Source of the DNA: an uncultured Brachyspira sp.
GTDB lineage: Bacteria > Spirochaetota > Brachyspiria > Brachyspirales > Brachyspiraceae
Direction of reading: 5' to 3'
Assembly (NCBI RefSeq): GCF_944390845.1
Contig: NZ_CALXRM010000011.1
Location: 1-64,000, forward strand
DNA length: 64,000 nucleotides
Shown: one piece after another, positions 13,194-36,258 of the stretch
Numbering within the stretch: the stretch's first letter is position 1
Layout of the letters: each line of letters opens with the position of its first letter
Position numbers and translations under genes: made by a program
Notes under the pieces: generated by a model
What the model was told of the DNA's origin: nothing
Seen by the model: only the letters and a program-made list of their open reading frames with translations
Database searches by the model: none

Positions 13194-13799
13194 CTATAAA
13201 AAAGATATATTCAATCCGTATTCTTCTGAATGGTCTTTTATACTATAAGTTTTATTATGTTCAAGAAGTTTTATTTTTAATTTTTCTTGACTAAATATAG
13301 ATGAAATATTATCTAATTCTAAAACTTCATTACTATTATTAATTGATAATTTTTTATTTGAAATTGCCTGTTTGTAATAAATAGGATTTGTACTTATATC
13401 TTTTCTTACAAAAAATAAATATACTTTATTAAGTGTAATATTCTTAAAATAAGAAAGTACTGCTAAAGATCTCAAACAAGCTCCATCAAACTGCTGTATT
13501 AATTCATCATCTTTTTTTCTCCCCTTACTAAATTCAAAAATATACAAATTGTAAACTTTTTCACTTTCTTTTTGGATAATCACTTTATCAGCACATTTTT
13601 TATTTTGTAAATATGGAAATGATTTATCTCCTTCTAATCCTATTATGGATAAAGAATTTTCAAAAACTTCTATAGTTACAGATATATCATGATCAGTTAA
13701 TATATATTCTTTCTCATTATAATCATCAAAGAAATTATTAAGAAATATTTTTTTTAAAACTTCCCTAAAAACTTCAGGATAATTTTCATACCATTTCAT
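13194..13799 (-). CDS. Module A nuclease-like partner (PD-(D/E)XK candidate)
   Basis: 201-aa protein not recognised as a named family. It sits 2 bp after the ATPase gene on the same strand. A possible PD-(D/E)XK core is seen as CADKVII (Asp71), then YIFEFSK (Glu89, Lys92), between predicted strands. The spacing is E-x-x-K rather than the usual E-x-K. A similar layout occurs in the partner of module B, with little identity otherwise. No signal peptide or membrane segment is seen. An effector nuclease working with the ATPase is inferred; the active-site assignment is tentative. Confidence 0.55.
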   Translation of the reverse strand: MKWYENYPEVFREVLKKIFLNNFFDDYNEKEYILTDHDISVTIEVFENSLSIIGLEGDKSFPYLQNKKCADKVIIQKESEKVYNLYIFEFSKGRKKDDELIQQFDGACLRSLAVLSYFKNITLNKVYLFFVRKDISTNPIYYKQAISNKKLSINNSNEVLELDNISSIFSQEKLKIKLLEHNKTYSIKDHSEEYGLNISFL

Positions 13800-13801
13800 T
13801 A

Positions 13802-15154
13802 TTATAATTCTTCCTGAAAATCATATATTTCATCTGATATTTTTTTTAGTACTTTATTGAAAGTAGGAACTTCAAAACCGTACTCTGAACTTTCTAATTT
13901 TGTAACTTTTGTAAATCCGTCTTCTTCAATGTCAAACTGATACATTCTAACCTTATCTTCTGAAATCAAATCATCTTCATCATAACCGTATTTATTCATC
14001 AAATATTTTTTTCTTTCTTCATCATTTGAATTTAATTTAATCATATTATTTATATGCTGAACAATAGTATCGCTGTGAGTTGTTATTAAAATATGAGTAT
14101 TAATATTCACTAATTTAATAAAAACTCTTGTCAATTGCTGCTGAAGATAAGGATGTAAAGAAATTTCAGGCTCTTCCATCATTATATCTTCATTATGTTT
14201 ACTATATTTTAAAAATAGTATTAAAGCAGCAATTTCAGTAATTACTGCAGAACTTACATGCATTTTTAAATCGATATCTAAATTATTACTTTTATAATGA
14301 ACTTTTGGAGAAGGCATATTATCTAAATATATCTTACCATTTATAATTTTATTTTCTAGTAAATCCACAATATTTTTTTTATTAATATTCTCATTGAAAT
14401 TTAAATACGATAATTTAAAGAAAAAATCTCTTATAGGTAATGTTAATTCTAATTTATCATTAACATTAGAATAATAACTATTACTAAAATAACTGTTTAA
14501 CGATTTATCTATTATTAAATCTTTAAACAATAAAAAACCTGTTCTTGATATAGGCAAAAAAAGAGTATTATTATATTCTCTTGACATAATACCCTCCAAT
14601 ATTCTAATACATAATAATGTAATAATGCTATCAATACTGTTACTAGCATTTCCTGGAAAATATTTATTATTATGATAAAAATAAATAATATTATCATTAG
14701 ATTTATTAGATGAAATACTCTTATGATATTTCATATTAATATTTATATCATAATTTTGATACGATATATATATTTCTTCAGCAATAATATTTTTATAAGT
14801 AAATATACTTTCAAAAATAGCAACCTTATTATAAGATATAATATCATTTGCTACATTTATACATTCATCTATAACTTCATTAGATATCTTTATTTCTGTA
14901 ACTTCAGTTTTATTGTTAGAAAATATTTCATTTGACAAATTATATAAATAATGATAATTTTTAAAATTCAAAGATTGTTTATAGTCCCAAAAAAACATTA
15001 CACTAGAAATATACCAAACTAAACTAGCTAAATAACTTTTACCGCTGTTGTTGTCGCCGACAAAAAGTGTGAATGGAGCCAATTCTATTTCTGCCTCTTT
15101 GATTTTAGCAAAATTTTTAACATATAGTTTAGGGTATTTATTTTTTTCTGACAT
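13802..15154 (-). CDS. Module A OLD-like AAA ATPase
   Basis: 450-aa ATPase of the OLD/AAA_15/AAA_21 group. Walker A is GDNNSGKS near residue 33, preceded by the typical N-terminal VKNFAKIKEAEIEL. A long divergent middle (about 60-310) would carry a helical insert. The C-terminal half has MMEEPEISLHP (Walker B, with Glu in place of the usual Asp) and LITTHSDTIVQ. No Toprim domain follows, unlike the full OLD nuclease or GajA. It is paired with a downstream 201-aa protein. Such ATPase-plus-effector pairs are common in defence systems (general knowledge). Defence function is inferred. Confidence 0.75.
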   Translation of the reverse strand: MSEKNKYPKLYVKNFAKIKEAEIELAPFTLFVGDNNSGKSYLASLVWYISSVMFFWDYKQSLNFKNYHYLYNLSNEIFSNNKTEVTEIKISNEVIDECINVANDIISYNKVAIFESIFTYKNIIAEEIYISYQNYDININMKYHKSISSNKSNDNIIYFYHNNKYFPGNASNSIDSIITLLCIRILEGIMSREYNNTLFLPISRTGFLLFKDLIIDKSLNSYFSNSYYSNVNDKLELTLPIRDFFFKLSYLNFNENINKKNIVDLLENKIINGKIYLDNMPSPKVHYKSNNLDIDLKMHVSSAVITEIAALILFLKYSKHNEDIMMEEPEISLHPYLQQQLTRVFIKLVNINTHILITTHSDTIVQHINNMIKLNSNDEERKKYLMNKYGYDEDDLISEDKVRMYQFDIEEDGFTKVTKLESSEYGFEVPTFNKVLKKISDEIYDFQEEL

Positions 15155-31231: not shown

Positions 31232-33391
31232 ATGCCTAATGAAACAGAAGAAAAAATAAAAAAAACAACAAGTAGGAAAACAAAAGAGAAAAAAGAGTCT
31301 AAAGAATCAAAGAAGAAAAAACTTGTTATAGTAGAGTCTCCGGCAAAAGCGAAAACCATTAATAGATATTTAGGCTCCGATTATCTTGTAATGTCATCAA
31401 TGGGGCATTTAATAGATTTACCTAGAAGCAGACTGGCTATAGATGTTGATCATGGATTTGAGCCTGAATACATTACAATAAGAGGAAGGGCTAAAATATT
31501 AAATGAATTAAAGAAAGAAGCTAAAAAAGCCCAAGAAGTATTACTAGCAGCCGATGATGATAGAGAGGGAGAAAGTATAGCTTGGCATATAGGAAATAAA
31601 ATCAGAGGAGTAAATTCTGCTGTACCTATAAAAAGAATAGTATTCCATGAGATAACAAAAGATGCTTTAAAAGAGGCTATTGATCAGCCTAGAGATATAG
31701 ATATTGCAAAAGTTAATGCCCAAAAAGCAAGGAGAGTATTAGACAGACTTATCGGTTATAATTTAAGCCCTTTACTTTGGGATAAGATAAAAAGAGGACT
31801 TTCCGCAGGAAGAGTACAGAATGTAGCTTTACTTATTATTTGTAATAGAGAAGATGAAATTGAAACATTTGTACCTGTTGAATATTGGACTTTCGGAGTA
31901 TTTTTAAAGCATAAAAATAAAGAGTTTTTAGCTGAACTTCAAAAATATAAAGGCGAAAAACCTGATTTAAAAACTAAACAAGATGTTGAAGATATAATGG
32001 AACATCTTAAAGACAAAACTTATACTGTTTCAAGCATAGAGGTAAAAGACAGATTAAGAAATCCTACTGCCCCATATACTACAAGTAAGCTTCAGCAGGC
32101 AGCAAGCAGTGCATTAGGATACAGTGCTTCAAAAACTATGCAGGTAGCACAATCACTTTATGAAGGTGTTGACATTGCAGGAGAAGCTACAGGTTTAATA
32201 ACTTATATGCGTACCGACAGTGTAAGAATATCTCCAGTAGCACAAGAACAAGCTAAAGAGTTTATAGAAAAAGAATATGGAAGCAATTATTTACCTTCAG
32301 AACCTCCTGTTTATTCTGTAAAAAAGAATGCTCAAGATGCTCACGAAGCTATAAGACCTACTAATGTATTTTTAACTCCGGACAGCATTAAAGAATATTT
32401 AAAAACAGATCAATATAAATTATATAAACTTATATGGGAAAGATTTGTTTCTTCTCAAATGCTTCCTGCAAAAATGAAAAATACAAGAGCTATAATAGTG
32501 GCAGGTGATTGTGAGTTTTCTCTTTCTTCTTCAAAAATAGAATTTGACGGATTTATGAAAGTTCTTACTATAGATAAAGAAGATAAAGAAAAAGCTTCTA
32601 AAATGCCTAATTTATCAAAAGATGATGTATGTGATTTTGTTGAAAATAATCCTCAGCAGCATTTCACAACACCACCTCCAAGATATACAGATGCTTCGCT
32701 AGTTAAAATATTAGAAGAATCAGGAATAGGAAGACCTTCTACTTATGCTCCAACTATTAAGACAATTATATCAAGGCATTATGTACAGAGAAAAGGAAAA
32801 CAATTAGTACCTACAGAATTAGGAAAACTTGTTAATGAACTTATAAGCGAGAACTTCCCAGAGCTTGTTAATATCAATTTCACAGCTGATATGGAAAGTA
32901 AACTTGATAAAATAGAAGACGATAATATAGAATGGAATAATATATTAAAAGAATTCTATCCTCATTTTTTGGATACATTGAAAACAGCTACTGAAAATAT
33001 TAATAATATGAAAGACTTTTTCAATGAAGAAACTGATTTTGTATGTGAAAAATGCGGTAAGAAAATGATTAAGCGTTTAGGAAGATATGGATATTTCATA
33101 GCTTGTTCAGGATTCCCAGAATGTAAAAACACTAAAGGAATATCTTTCGGAGTTTGTCCTAAATGCGGCGGCGATATAACATTAAAACGCTCAAAAAGAG
33201 GAAGAGAATTCTATGGCTGTTCCAATTATCCTAAATGCGATTTCGTAAGTTGGGATAAACCGCTTCAAGAACCTTGTCCAAAATGCGGAGGACTTATGGT
33301 TGAGAGGAACATAAAAAACAAAGGATTGTTTAAAGTTTGTATCAAGGAAGATTGTGGTTATTCAGAGGAAATAAAAGAGAACGAAGAATAA
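31232..33391 (+). CDS. topA: DNA topoisomerase I
   Basis: Type IA topoisomerase that relaxes negative supercoils. A Lys-rich N-terminal extension (about 30 residues) precedes the Toprim domain: VIVESPAKAKTINRYLG and LAADDDREGESIAWHI. The catalytic tyrosine lies in GLITYMRTDSVRISP. The C-terminus carries three zinc-finger-like modules, for example CEKCGKKMIKRLG, CPKCGGDITLKR and CPKCGGLMVERN. A GGAG ribosome site precedes the ATG. It is followed by an amidase gene that starts inside its 3' end. Confidence 0.96.
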   Translation: MPNETEEKIKKTTSRKTKEKKESKESKKKKLVIVESPAKAKTINRYLGSDYLVMSSMGHLIDLPRSRLAIDVDHGFEPEYITIRGRAKILNELKKEAKKAQEVLLAADDDREGESIAWHIGNKIRGVNSAVPIKRIVFHEITKDALKEAIDQPRDIDIAKVNAQKARRVLDRLIGYNLSPLLWDKIKRGLSAGRVQNVALLIICNREDEIETFVPVEYWTFGVFLKHKNKEFLAELQKYKGEKPDLKTKQDVEDIMEHLKDKTYTVSSIEVKDRLRNPTAPYTTSKLQQAASSALGYSASKTMQVAQSLYEGVDIAGEATGLITYMRTDSVRISPVAQEQAKEFIEKEYGSNYLPSEPPVYSVKKNAQDAHEAIRPTNVFLTPDSIKEYLKTDQYKLYKLIWERFVSSQMLPAKMKNTRAIIVAGDCEFSLSSSKIEFDGFMKVLTIDKEDKEKASKMPNLSKDDVCDFVENNPQQHFTTPPPRYTDASLVKILEESGIGRPSTYAPTIKTIISRHYVQRKGKQLVPTELGKLVNELISENFPELVNINFTADMESKLDKIEDDNIEWNNILKEFYPHFLDTLKTATENINNMKDFFNEETDFVCEKCGKKMIKRLGRYGYFIACSGFPECKNTKGISFGVCPKCGGDITLKRSKRGREFYGCSNYPKCDFVSWDKPLQEPCPKCGGLMVERNIKNKGLFKVCIKEDCGYSEEIKENEE

Positions 33392-34281
33392 CATTATTCT
33401 TTATTATTGTATTAACTCTATTTAATACTTACTTTTTATACCCGCAGAATAATGATAAAATAAAATTAGATAATCTAAACATAAAAGTAGAAGATCTAAA
33501 AAAAGCATTTAATCCTGCGGTTAATAAATTCAATGAAAAAACAATATCTACTATAATCATAGACCCCGGACATGGCGGAAAAGATCCGGGGGCTATTGGT
33601 ATAAATAAATTATTTGAAAAAGACGTAGTTTTATCATTCTCTTTGGAATTAGAAGAAGAATTAAAAAAAATTATGCCTAATGTAAAAATAGTTTTAACAA
33701 GAAAAGGCGACACCTACCCTACTCTTGAAGAACGCTTCAAAATTGCCAATGATGCCGCAAAAATAAATACAGACAAATCTAAAAATGCATTATTTGTAAG
33801 TGTGCATGCTAATGCTTCATTCAGTCCAAGTGCTAAAGGTTTTGAAGCTTATTTTGTAAGTGCTCAGGAATCAAGTGAATATGCTAGAGCTGTATCAATG
33901 TTTGAAAATGAGGCTTTGGTAAAATTCGATAATATAGACACTTCAAAATACGAAAAAGATTCTTCTCAAATCACTCATAACTATATGCTTGTAGAACAGT
34001 ATCAAAAAGAAAGCAGATTATTAGCAGAATCTATTACAGAACAAGTTCTTAAAGTATCCGGAGTTGCCAGAAGAACAAAACCTGTACAGAATGCCTTATT
34101 CTATGTATTAAAAGGAGCTATAATGCCTTCTACTTTAATAGAATTAGGTTTTATTACCAATCCAGATGATGCCAAATTCATGAAAACAAAAGAAACAAGA
34201 TTAAAAATGGTAAAAGCTACAGCAGAAGGTATAAAGCAATACATAGAGCTTTTTGAAAAGACTAAAGGTTTTACAAAATAA
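33337..34281 (+). CDS. N-acetylmuramoyl-L-alanine amidase (Amidase_3)
   Basis: Peptidoglycan hydrolase that cleaves the MurNAc-L-Ala bond. After an N-terminal hydrophobic signal segment (about residues 18-34, LFFIIVLTLFN), the catalytic domain shows the zinc ligands: IIDPGHGGKDPG (His), FVSVHANAS (His) and STLIELGFITN (Glu). The reading frame starts with TTG at 33337, overlapping topA by 55 bp, so start choice is uncertain. A role in cell separation or wall remodelling is likely. The topA overlap suggests coupled expression. Confidence 0.87.
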   Translation: MYQGRLWLFRGNKRERRITLFFIIVLTLFNTYFLYPQNNDKIKLDNLNIKVEDLKKAFNPAVNKFNEKTISTIIIDPGHGGKDPGAIGINKLFEKDVVLSFSLELEEELKKIMPNVKIVLTRKGDTYPTLEERFKIANDAAKINTDKSKNALFVSVHANASFSPSAKGFEAYFVSAQESSEYARAVSMFENEALVKFDNIDTSKYEKDSSQITHNYMLVEQYQKESRLLAESITEQVLKVSGVARRTKPVQNALFYVLKGAIMPSTLIELGFITNPDDAKFMKTKETRLKMVKATAEGIKQYIELFEKTKGFTK

Positions 34282-34334: not shown

Positions 34335-35672
34335 ATGGAACTTCAATTAAGAAATATCGGAATGATAAAAGAGGCTGATATCATATTAGACGGGCTTACT
34401 TTAATAGCTGGTGAAAATGATACAGGTAAAAGTACAGTCGGAAAGGCTTTATATTCTGTTGTTGCTGGTTTGAATAATGCTGAAAAAAACTACAAAGAAT
34501 ATATTGAAGAAATAAAAATATATCCAATAACAAGAAATATAGCAAGAAAATTAGAAAATGAATTTTTAAAAAAATGGAACGATAAAAATTCTTTAGTTAG
34601 AATAAGAGATTTAGACTTTGTAGGATTTCAGGAATATATAGGTGCCATATTACAATATTTTATTTTTGATGTAAATAATTTGAATAACAATTTTTTTCAA
34701 GAAGATAAAAAAAATCTTCAGGAATATGATTTATATAATTGTATAGAAAATGATATAAAAGAATATTTTAATATATTAAGTAATAAAACAAACATTAATG
34801 AAATAAAATATTATAGTATCAAACAGCATATATTAAATGAATTAAAAAATAATGTGCAATCTTTTAATTGTGAAAAATCAAATATATCTATATTAGAAGA
34901 TAATAATAAAATCATAAATATAGATATTATAAATAATCAATTTAATGATGACGAATTAATAGGAAATGTATATGCATCTAATATAACATATATAGAAACT
35001 CCGTTTATATTTAATATAATAGAAAATTATATAACTCCTTATAAATTAAAAAAATATACAGTTGATAATCATTTAATAGATTTAAGTAAAAAAATAATTG
35101 AAAATAGAAATAAATCTATTATGGATACTGATTATTCTCTTTTTGAAGAATTTAATAAAATAAAAAAAATATCAGATAAAATACAAAAAAATATAAATGG
35201 GTCTATAGAATATGATAATATAAAAGATACGATGTTCTTCAAAAAAAATAATAATTATATAGAGCTTTCAAATACTGCTGTAGGAATAAAATCTTTTGCT
35301 ATAATAGATTTACTTTTGAAAGCTGGTGTTTTTAATGATAAACATATTTTAATACTTGATGAACCTGAAGTGCATTTACATCCTAAATGGCAAATTGAAT
35401 ATGCTAAACTTATGGTTAAAATGGCTGAAGAATTGGATATACAAATTTTAATTAATTCTCATAGTCCGTACTTTATAGAAGCTATACAAAAATATTCTGA
35501 AAAGTCAGAAAAAATTGCTGATAAAACTAACTTCTATTTAAGTGAAAAACAAGAAGATGGTTATGCTGTAATAAAAAATGTTAATGATGATATAGAAAGC
35601 ATATACAAAACTTTAGCCGATGCCTACAGAAAATTAGATGAAGATACATTATGGAATGAGTCAGAAAAATGA
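34335..35672 (+). CDS. Module B OLD-like AAA ATPase
   Basis: 445-aa ATPase of the OLD/AAA group, analogous to the module A protein. The N-terminal LRNIGMIKEADIIL leads to Walker A GENDTGKST at about residue 28. A long divergent middle follows. The C-terminal half has LLLKAGVFN, then ILILDEPEVHLHP (Walker B) and INSHSPYFIEA. No Toprim domain. It overlaps the partner by four bases (ATGA), which suggests coupled translation. It lies 53 bp after the amidase gene, so it could ride on the upstream operon. Defence function is inferred. Confidence 0.78.
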   Translation: MELQLRNIGMIKEADIILDGLTLIAGENDTGKSTVGKALYSVVAGLNNAEKNYKEYIEEIKIYPITRNIARKLENEFLKKWNDKNSLVRIRDLDFVGFQEYIGAILQYFIFDVNNLNNNFFQEDKKNLQEYDLYNCIENDIKEYFNILSNKTNINEIKYYSIKQHILNELKNNVQSFNCEKSNISILEDNNKIINIDIINNQFNDDELIGNVYASNITYIETPFIFNIIENYITPYKLKKYTVDNHLIDLSKKIIENRNKSIMDTDYSLFEEFNKIKKISDKIQKNINGSIEYDNIKDTMFFKKNNNYIELSNTAVGIKSFAIIDLLLKAGVFNDKHILILDEPEVHLHPKWQIEYAKLMVKMAEELDIQILINSHSPYFIEAIQKYSEKSEKIADKTNFYLSEKQEDGYAVIKNVNDDIESIYKTLADAYRKLDEDTLWNESEK

Positions 35673-36258
35673 CACCAAAACAAATAAGCGATATTACAAA
35701 CCAATTAAAAAATATATTAAATACAGATTTTAATAATTGTAAAGATAAAATATCAGAAGTATGCAAAGATATTGATAAAAATATAAGTAAAATAACTTTA
35801 GACACAGAAGTTTTTGATTTTGATAAAATAACTTTTAATATAAAAAAGAATAACAGACCAAAATCAGCCGATATGATACATATACAGAATAATATAATAT
35901 ATTTGATAGAATTTAAAAATACATCTTTATTAATAAATTCAGAAAGCAGTAAAGATTTTAAGCAAAAATTAAAAAATGAAATAAAATTAAAAGGCATAGA
36001 AAGTTTAATAACAATACATAAAATAATTAATAAAATGATAGATGAAAATATTTTTTGGATTTAAATATATATTATTACCTAATAGCAAATGAAAATGCAG
36101 AAAATAATACTTCAGAAAATAAAGAAAATAGAAATAGAGTTAGAATTAATGAAGATTGTGCAAGATTGACAACAGAGTATAAAAACCGTTATTTCAAAGA
36201 TATAAAAATTTCTACATTTGAAAGTTTTGAAAAATATTTTATTAATAAATATTTCTAA
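35669..36258 (+). pseudogene. Module B nuclease-like partner, split by a frameshift at a T tract
   Basis: The first part (131 aa, 35669-36064) carries SADMIHI (Asp68) and YLIEFKN (Glu81, Lys83). This gives D-x12-E-x-K, a good PD-(D/E)XK core. The frame is lost at TTTTTT (36051-36056). One extra T would join it to the frame continuing to 36258 (DLNIYYYLIANE...), giving about 196 aa, close to the 201 aa of the module A partner. It could be a disabled gene, a slippage switch or a sequence error. Its start overlaps the ATPase stop by four bases. Confidence 0.6.

Follow-up and report, generated by a model that had tools for sequence, protein, structure and literature searches.

The DNA analysed here, referred to as the window, is a stretch of 64,000 nucleotides from an uncultured Brachyspira sp. 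(contig NZ_CALXRM010000011.1, positions 1 to 64,000). Two genes on its forward strand, which we call module B, are flanked by genes for an amidase and a MATE transporter, with DprA and TopA encoded nearby. The first gene (34335–35672) starts with ATG and encodes a 445-aa OLD-type ABC ATPase, the proposed sensor or regulator of the pair. The second (35669–36064) also starts with ATG and encodes a protein of 131 aa. As the original prediction had it, the stop of the ATPase gene and the start of its partner overlap by four bases (ATGA, 35669–35672).

The ATPase matched Pfam AAA_15 (4.4e-18) and also AAA_21, and its nearest solved relatives were an OLD-family protein (6p74), PtuA and AriA. Its best PADLOC profile was HEC-02A (1.1e-27, best of 92 families), and PD-T4-4_A was matched at 1.1e-21. 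The nucleotide-binding motifs are conserved in an alignment of 22 ATPase sequences: Walker A (GENDTGKST, aa 26–34, 34410–34436), a signature-like motif (NTAVGIKS, aa 313–320, 35271–35294), which reads LSAGLKS in most relatives, Walker B (ILILDEPE, aa 338–345, 35346–35369) with invariant D342 and E343, and the H-loop (SHSPYF, aa 375–380, 35457–35474) with invariant H376.

The partner resembles a PD-(D/E)XK nuclease. Asp68 (35870–35872), a catalytic-type residue, is followed by an E-x-K motif, Glu81-Phe82-Lys83 (35909–35917; Glu81 codon 35909–35911, Lys83 codon 35915–35917), and the three residues stand in the D-x12-E-x-K spacing that had been read from the sequence. D68, E81 and K83 do not vary among 21 Brachyspira partners, and D, E and K are each kept in 81/81 partners from many phyla (83 were aligned and two fragments left out); therefore, the motif is not a chance occurrence.

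The partner gene of the window is truncated. Five Brachyspira orthologs at the same locus carry an intact gene of 200–201 aa, and base-by-base alignment with them showed that 13 bases near position 36050, present in all five, are absent from the window. This frame-breaking deletion maps to 36048–36057. The C-terminal third of the gene persists out of frame downstream (36055–36258), and this open reading frame alone matches positions 120–190 of the partner-family model (E = 1.3e-6). The protein as encoded thus comprises 131 of about 200 aa; it retains the D, E and K residues and lacks the strand around conserved Tyr140 and everything beyond it. The predicted length of the partner with its frame repaired, about 196 aa, was close to that of the intact orthologs, but the break turned out to be a 13-bp deletion.

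Because these 13 bp are missing relative to all five orthologs, we consider the truncation to be real rather than a single-base reading error. It could be argued that the break reflects an error in sequencing, or that slippage carries translation across it, and that a full-length nuclease is made: the assembly is a draft of 133 contigs, a short run of six T lies at the break, and the 3' remnant still has a dN/dS of 0.18–0.33. This is very unlikely, as 13 bases differ and not one homopolymer base, six T are a short run for efficient slippage, and a recent deletion would leave dN/dS low. Indeed, the decay of the nuclease looks recent because the dN/dS of the remnant is still low. Since the deletion removes the last third of the nuclease, the module B copy in this genome is probably non-functional, and the pair in this window should not be annotated as a functioning defence system.

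The association of the two genes was examined by scanning public genomes with the alignment of 22 ATPases, which returned 76 loci in Bacteroidota, Bacillota, Campylobacterota, archaea and other groups. Sixty-six of the ATPases were near-complete, and 62 of these had a readable downstream ORF. In all 62 loci, which come from other genomes, the ORF directly downstream belonged to the partner family: 51 hit the model of Brachyspira partners at E < 1e-3, and in the remaining 11 the motif was recognised by eye. Intact genes are under purifying selection (dN/dS mostly 0.1–0.3). The pairing in 62/62 loci, the D/E/K motif and this selection bear out the earlier proposal that module B represents a real functional unit rather than chance neighbours.

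Presence of the module is patchy. The partner family was found in 13/26 Brachyspira genomes and in 2 of about 367 genomes from the rest of the phylum, and the module follows the amidase gene in 8/25 Brachyspira genomes. Named relatives in the genus are B. innocens and B. hampsonii, whose same-locus ortholog has an ATPase 87% identical to that of the window. The gene found after the conserved amidase gene (33337–34278) varies widely among Brachyspira species, and gene turnover may be a general feature of this site.

The window copy stands among housekeeping genes (DprA, TopA, the amidase and the MATE transporter), with no defence island. Its relatives are also carried by viruses: 23 viral contigs of IMG/VR carry the pair, with the partner present in 23/23, and in E. 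coli one relative, annotated as 'AAA family ATPase' plus 'hypothetical protein', occupies the exact position between the replication endonuclease (gpA) and portal (gpQ) genes of a P2-like prophage, a place known as a hotspot of anti-phage systems (Rousset et al., PMC9122126). The neighbouring DprA and TopA, together with the SMC/RecF-like superfamily of the ATPase, might suggest a housekeeping DNA-repair pair of the SbcCD or RecF type with no role in defence. Such a function is highly improbable in view of the patchy distribution, the carriage on prophages, and the swapped and broken copies described below.

AlphaFold modelled an intact ortholog of the module B partner with a pLDDT of 80 and a pTM of 0.80. 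Foldseek searches with this model returned mostly PD-(D/E)XK-fold nucleases, none of them individually significant (best E 0.02); these weak matches (E ≥ 0.02) included HamA, Nt.BspD6I/R.BspD6I, Can2, Cdn1, Hjc, Mus81 and bunyavirus endonucleases. Against viral structures only weak matches were obtained, several of them endonucleases. Pfam gave only a sub-threshold NERD match for the partner, and nothing was found when solved structures were searched with the partner profile.

Four Brachyspira partners that form one sub-branch (L041, L039, L045 and L028, from genomes G007, G025, G006 and G005) carry an insert of FxGxIxG-type repeats, about 90–100 aa long, inside the nuclease domain. The insert weakly matches bactofilin in two of the four (Pfam 0.011 and 0.023), and no such repeat was seen in relatives outside Brachyspira. 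The ATPases paired with three of the four repeat-bearing partners have a hydrophobic insert near aa 95–140 that could span a membrane. The sub-branch is thus a possible membrane- or filament-linked variant.

A 2025 study placed pairs of an OLD-ABC ATPase and a nuclease within a broader, so far uncharacterised family in which ABC-ATPase sensors are paired with nuclease effectors (PMC12137116). The tested example, WonAB, is encoded by the WASA-1 prophage of V. cholerae and combines an OLD-ABC ATPase with a PD-(D/E)XK nuclease; neither gene can be spared for defence, nor can the ATP-binding residues or the lysine of the nuclease, and once phage DNA has replicated, infection is aborted and translation is shut down (PMC12137116). 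Module B resembles WonAB in gene order, in the class of its ABC ATPase, in its small, putatively PD-(D/E)XK partner, in the prophage carriage of its relatives and in a C-terminal ATPase tail that would be tied to the nuclease, a likeness of layout; it differs in that its nuclease is truncated in this genome.

Among catalogued systems, the closest to module B is PADLOC HEC-02 (Hma-embedded candidate 02, HEC-02A + HEC-02B). HEC-02A matched 22/22 Brachyspira ATPases (best 2.9e-28), although the HEC-02A models are shorter (about 340 aa) than the 445-aa ATPase of the window. One HEC-02B model was matched by 3/21 Brachyspira partners (best 8.4e-4), and the window partner was not among them. PD-T4-4 and PDC-M47 share the broad layout; PD-T4-4_A matches the module B ATPase and fits module A (see below) better, and no match to PD-T4-4_B or PDC-M47B was found among 21 module B partners. 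PARIS (AriA + AriB), Septu (PtuA + PtuB), OLD and Gabija GajA have a related OLD-type ABC ATPase and a different effector. In Pfam scans, no partner matched DUF4435 (AriB) or HNH (PtuB), which excluded PARIS and Septu; OLD and GajA were set aside as the ATPase ends at 445 aa with no match to a fused C-terminal TOPRIM domain. Module B thus appears, by analogy, to be a Brachyspira member of the OLD-ABC ATPase plus PD-(D/E)XK nuclease kind represented by HEC-02 and related to the tested WonAB and PD-T4-4 systems, the tie to WonAB being one of layout. Our literature search found no experiment on the module B-type family, and no paper on the function of HEC-02 or on such systems in Brachyspira.

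The PD-(D/E)XK fold, with HamA, Nt.BspD6I and other DNA nucleases making up most of the nearest folds, would suit direct restriction, in which the pair cuts incoming phage or plasmid DNA and the cell is spared. We regard this as unlikely: no methyltransferase or other self-marking gene adjoins the pair in the window, and WonAB neither blocks DNA entry nor degrades genomic DNA (PMC12137116).

The opposite decay to that of the window was observed in two sister genomes, where the nuclease is intact and the ATPase is broken (G002) or split (G004). Together with the window, these breaks mean that 3/8 copies at the module B locus are broken in one gene. Decay was met again in a further B-type pair (L035, in Brachyspira G006), the nuclease gene of which is split into two ORFs. 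Frequent decay of one gene, in a unit of two overlapping genes with a small nuclease effector, might be expected of a plain toxin–antitoxin pair, with the nuclease as toxin and an ATPase that merely neutralises it and senses no phage. However, the state of G002 and G004, an intact nuclease beside a broken ATPase, would be lethal if the ATPase were a neutraliser, and WonB shows toxicity only in the presence of active WonA (PMC12137116); a plain toxin–antitoxin function is therefore unlikely.

A second pair in the window, module A, lies on the reverse strand. Its ATPase (13802–15154, 450 aa) belongs to the PD-T4-4_A/PDC-M47A subfamily of PADLOC profiles (PD-T4-4_A 1.4e-37, PDC-M47A 5.5e-29) and its partner (13194–13799, 201 aa) is PDC-M47B-like (1e-4), so that both genes match PD-T4-4/PDC-M47 profiles. 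The gene order is that of module B, but the genes are separated by a 2-bp gap instead of overlapping. In the module A partner D71 and E89 are conserved, and the lysine position of E-x-K is occupied by Ser. This lysine is replaced (EFS, ELT) in five aligned members of the partner's clade, and the remaining A-type partners keep E-L-K or E-M-K; the clade may have a modified active site or a lysine that has shifted to another position. AlphaFold modelled the module A partner poorly (pLDDT 48), and this model was left out of the fold search; no viral relatives of this partner were found.

The original prediction presented modules A and B as diverged copies of a single layout. Their ATPases are genuinely but remotely related and belong to different subfamilies. 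As BLASTP gave nothing meaningful between the two partners, profiles were compared instead. hhalign returned probabilities of 12% and 11%, and 31% with a deeper module A profile, for which the score was 35 compared with a maximum of 16 in 60 shuffles; D, E and K were in register. The profile alignment therefore did not return two unrelated partners devoid of a nuclease fold: the core aligned above all shuffles, with a probability of 11–31%. Since the partners align only over the nuclease core, their sequences point to a probable common fold rather than a recent duplication, short of proof of homology. The idea of two diverged copies is consequently not borne out in that form: the modules have the same gene order and distantly related ATPases, but they fall into different subfamilies, and no more than the nuclease core is common to their partners.

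Further modules, which it had been suggested to look for, were present in the same genome: B-type pairs on contigs C76 and C22, A-type pairs on C13 and C103, and on C34 an ATPase of the OLD/ABC type whose downstream neighbour, 162 aa long, has a NERD-like D...E-V-K motif (L014). This brings the genome to about seven pairs of an ATPase and a nuclease-like protein.

Orthologs at the module B locus have exchanged blocks. Compared with the window, the ATPase of G015 is only 35% identical over a central variable region (aa 46–308, 34470–35258 in the window), and 94–98% identical over aa 1–45, aa 309–412 and the C-terminal tail (aa 413–445, 35571–35669); the G015 partner shares 88% identity with the intact ortholog of G007. 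Conversely, in G025 and G010 the tail is replaced together with the partner gene: the ATPase core is 96–100% identical, the tail 64 and 54%, and the partner is 36 and 37% identical to the G007 ortholog. In these recombinants, therefore, tail and nuclease move as a unit and the centre is exchanged on its own. Over 72 pairs, a mirror-tree analysis failed to distinguish tail from centre, partner distances tracking the tail no better than the centre (partial correlations 0.33 and 0.34), and the coupling of tail and nuclease thus stays a local result.

We propose that the central region (aa 46–308) is the sensing region and that the tail (aa 413–445) is a docking site for the nuclease; the latter proposal draws on one locus and, by analogy, on the predicted WonA/WonB complex (PMC12137116). 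Tentatively, and with close to even weight, we read the locus as a modular sensor–effector platform, in which the ATP-binding core would be fixed and the centre, on the one hand, and the tail with its nuclease, on the other, would be exchanged independently at one site.

Taken together, the pair is likely to be an anti-phage module of the abortive-infection type, in which an OLD-family ABC ATPase senses infection and holds and activates a small PD-(D/E)XK nuclease, and of which the copy in this genome is broken. The sensing, activation and abortive outcome are modelled on WonAB and related systems. The ATPase would dimerise around ATP, and its variable central region would respond to a trigger made by the phage. 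The nuclease, bound to the C-terminal tail of the ATPase, would receive the resulting change; once active, it would cleave nucleic acid, possibly RNA of host or phage, as has been suggested for WonB, and growth would stop before phage release.

This kind of system is already known; new here are a branch in Brachyspira, pairing that is close to perfect across loci, a broken copy and the exchange of blocks. The pairing statistics indicate that the ATPase plus nuclease layout is almost never found unpaired, and a spirochaete branch is now added to it. The natural recombinants suggest where the sensing part of the ATPase may end and the part that couples to the nuclease may begin. If the modular platform is true, recombination at this locus would combine new trigger specificities with new effectors.
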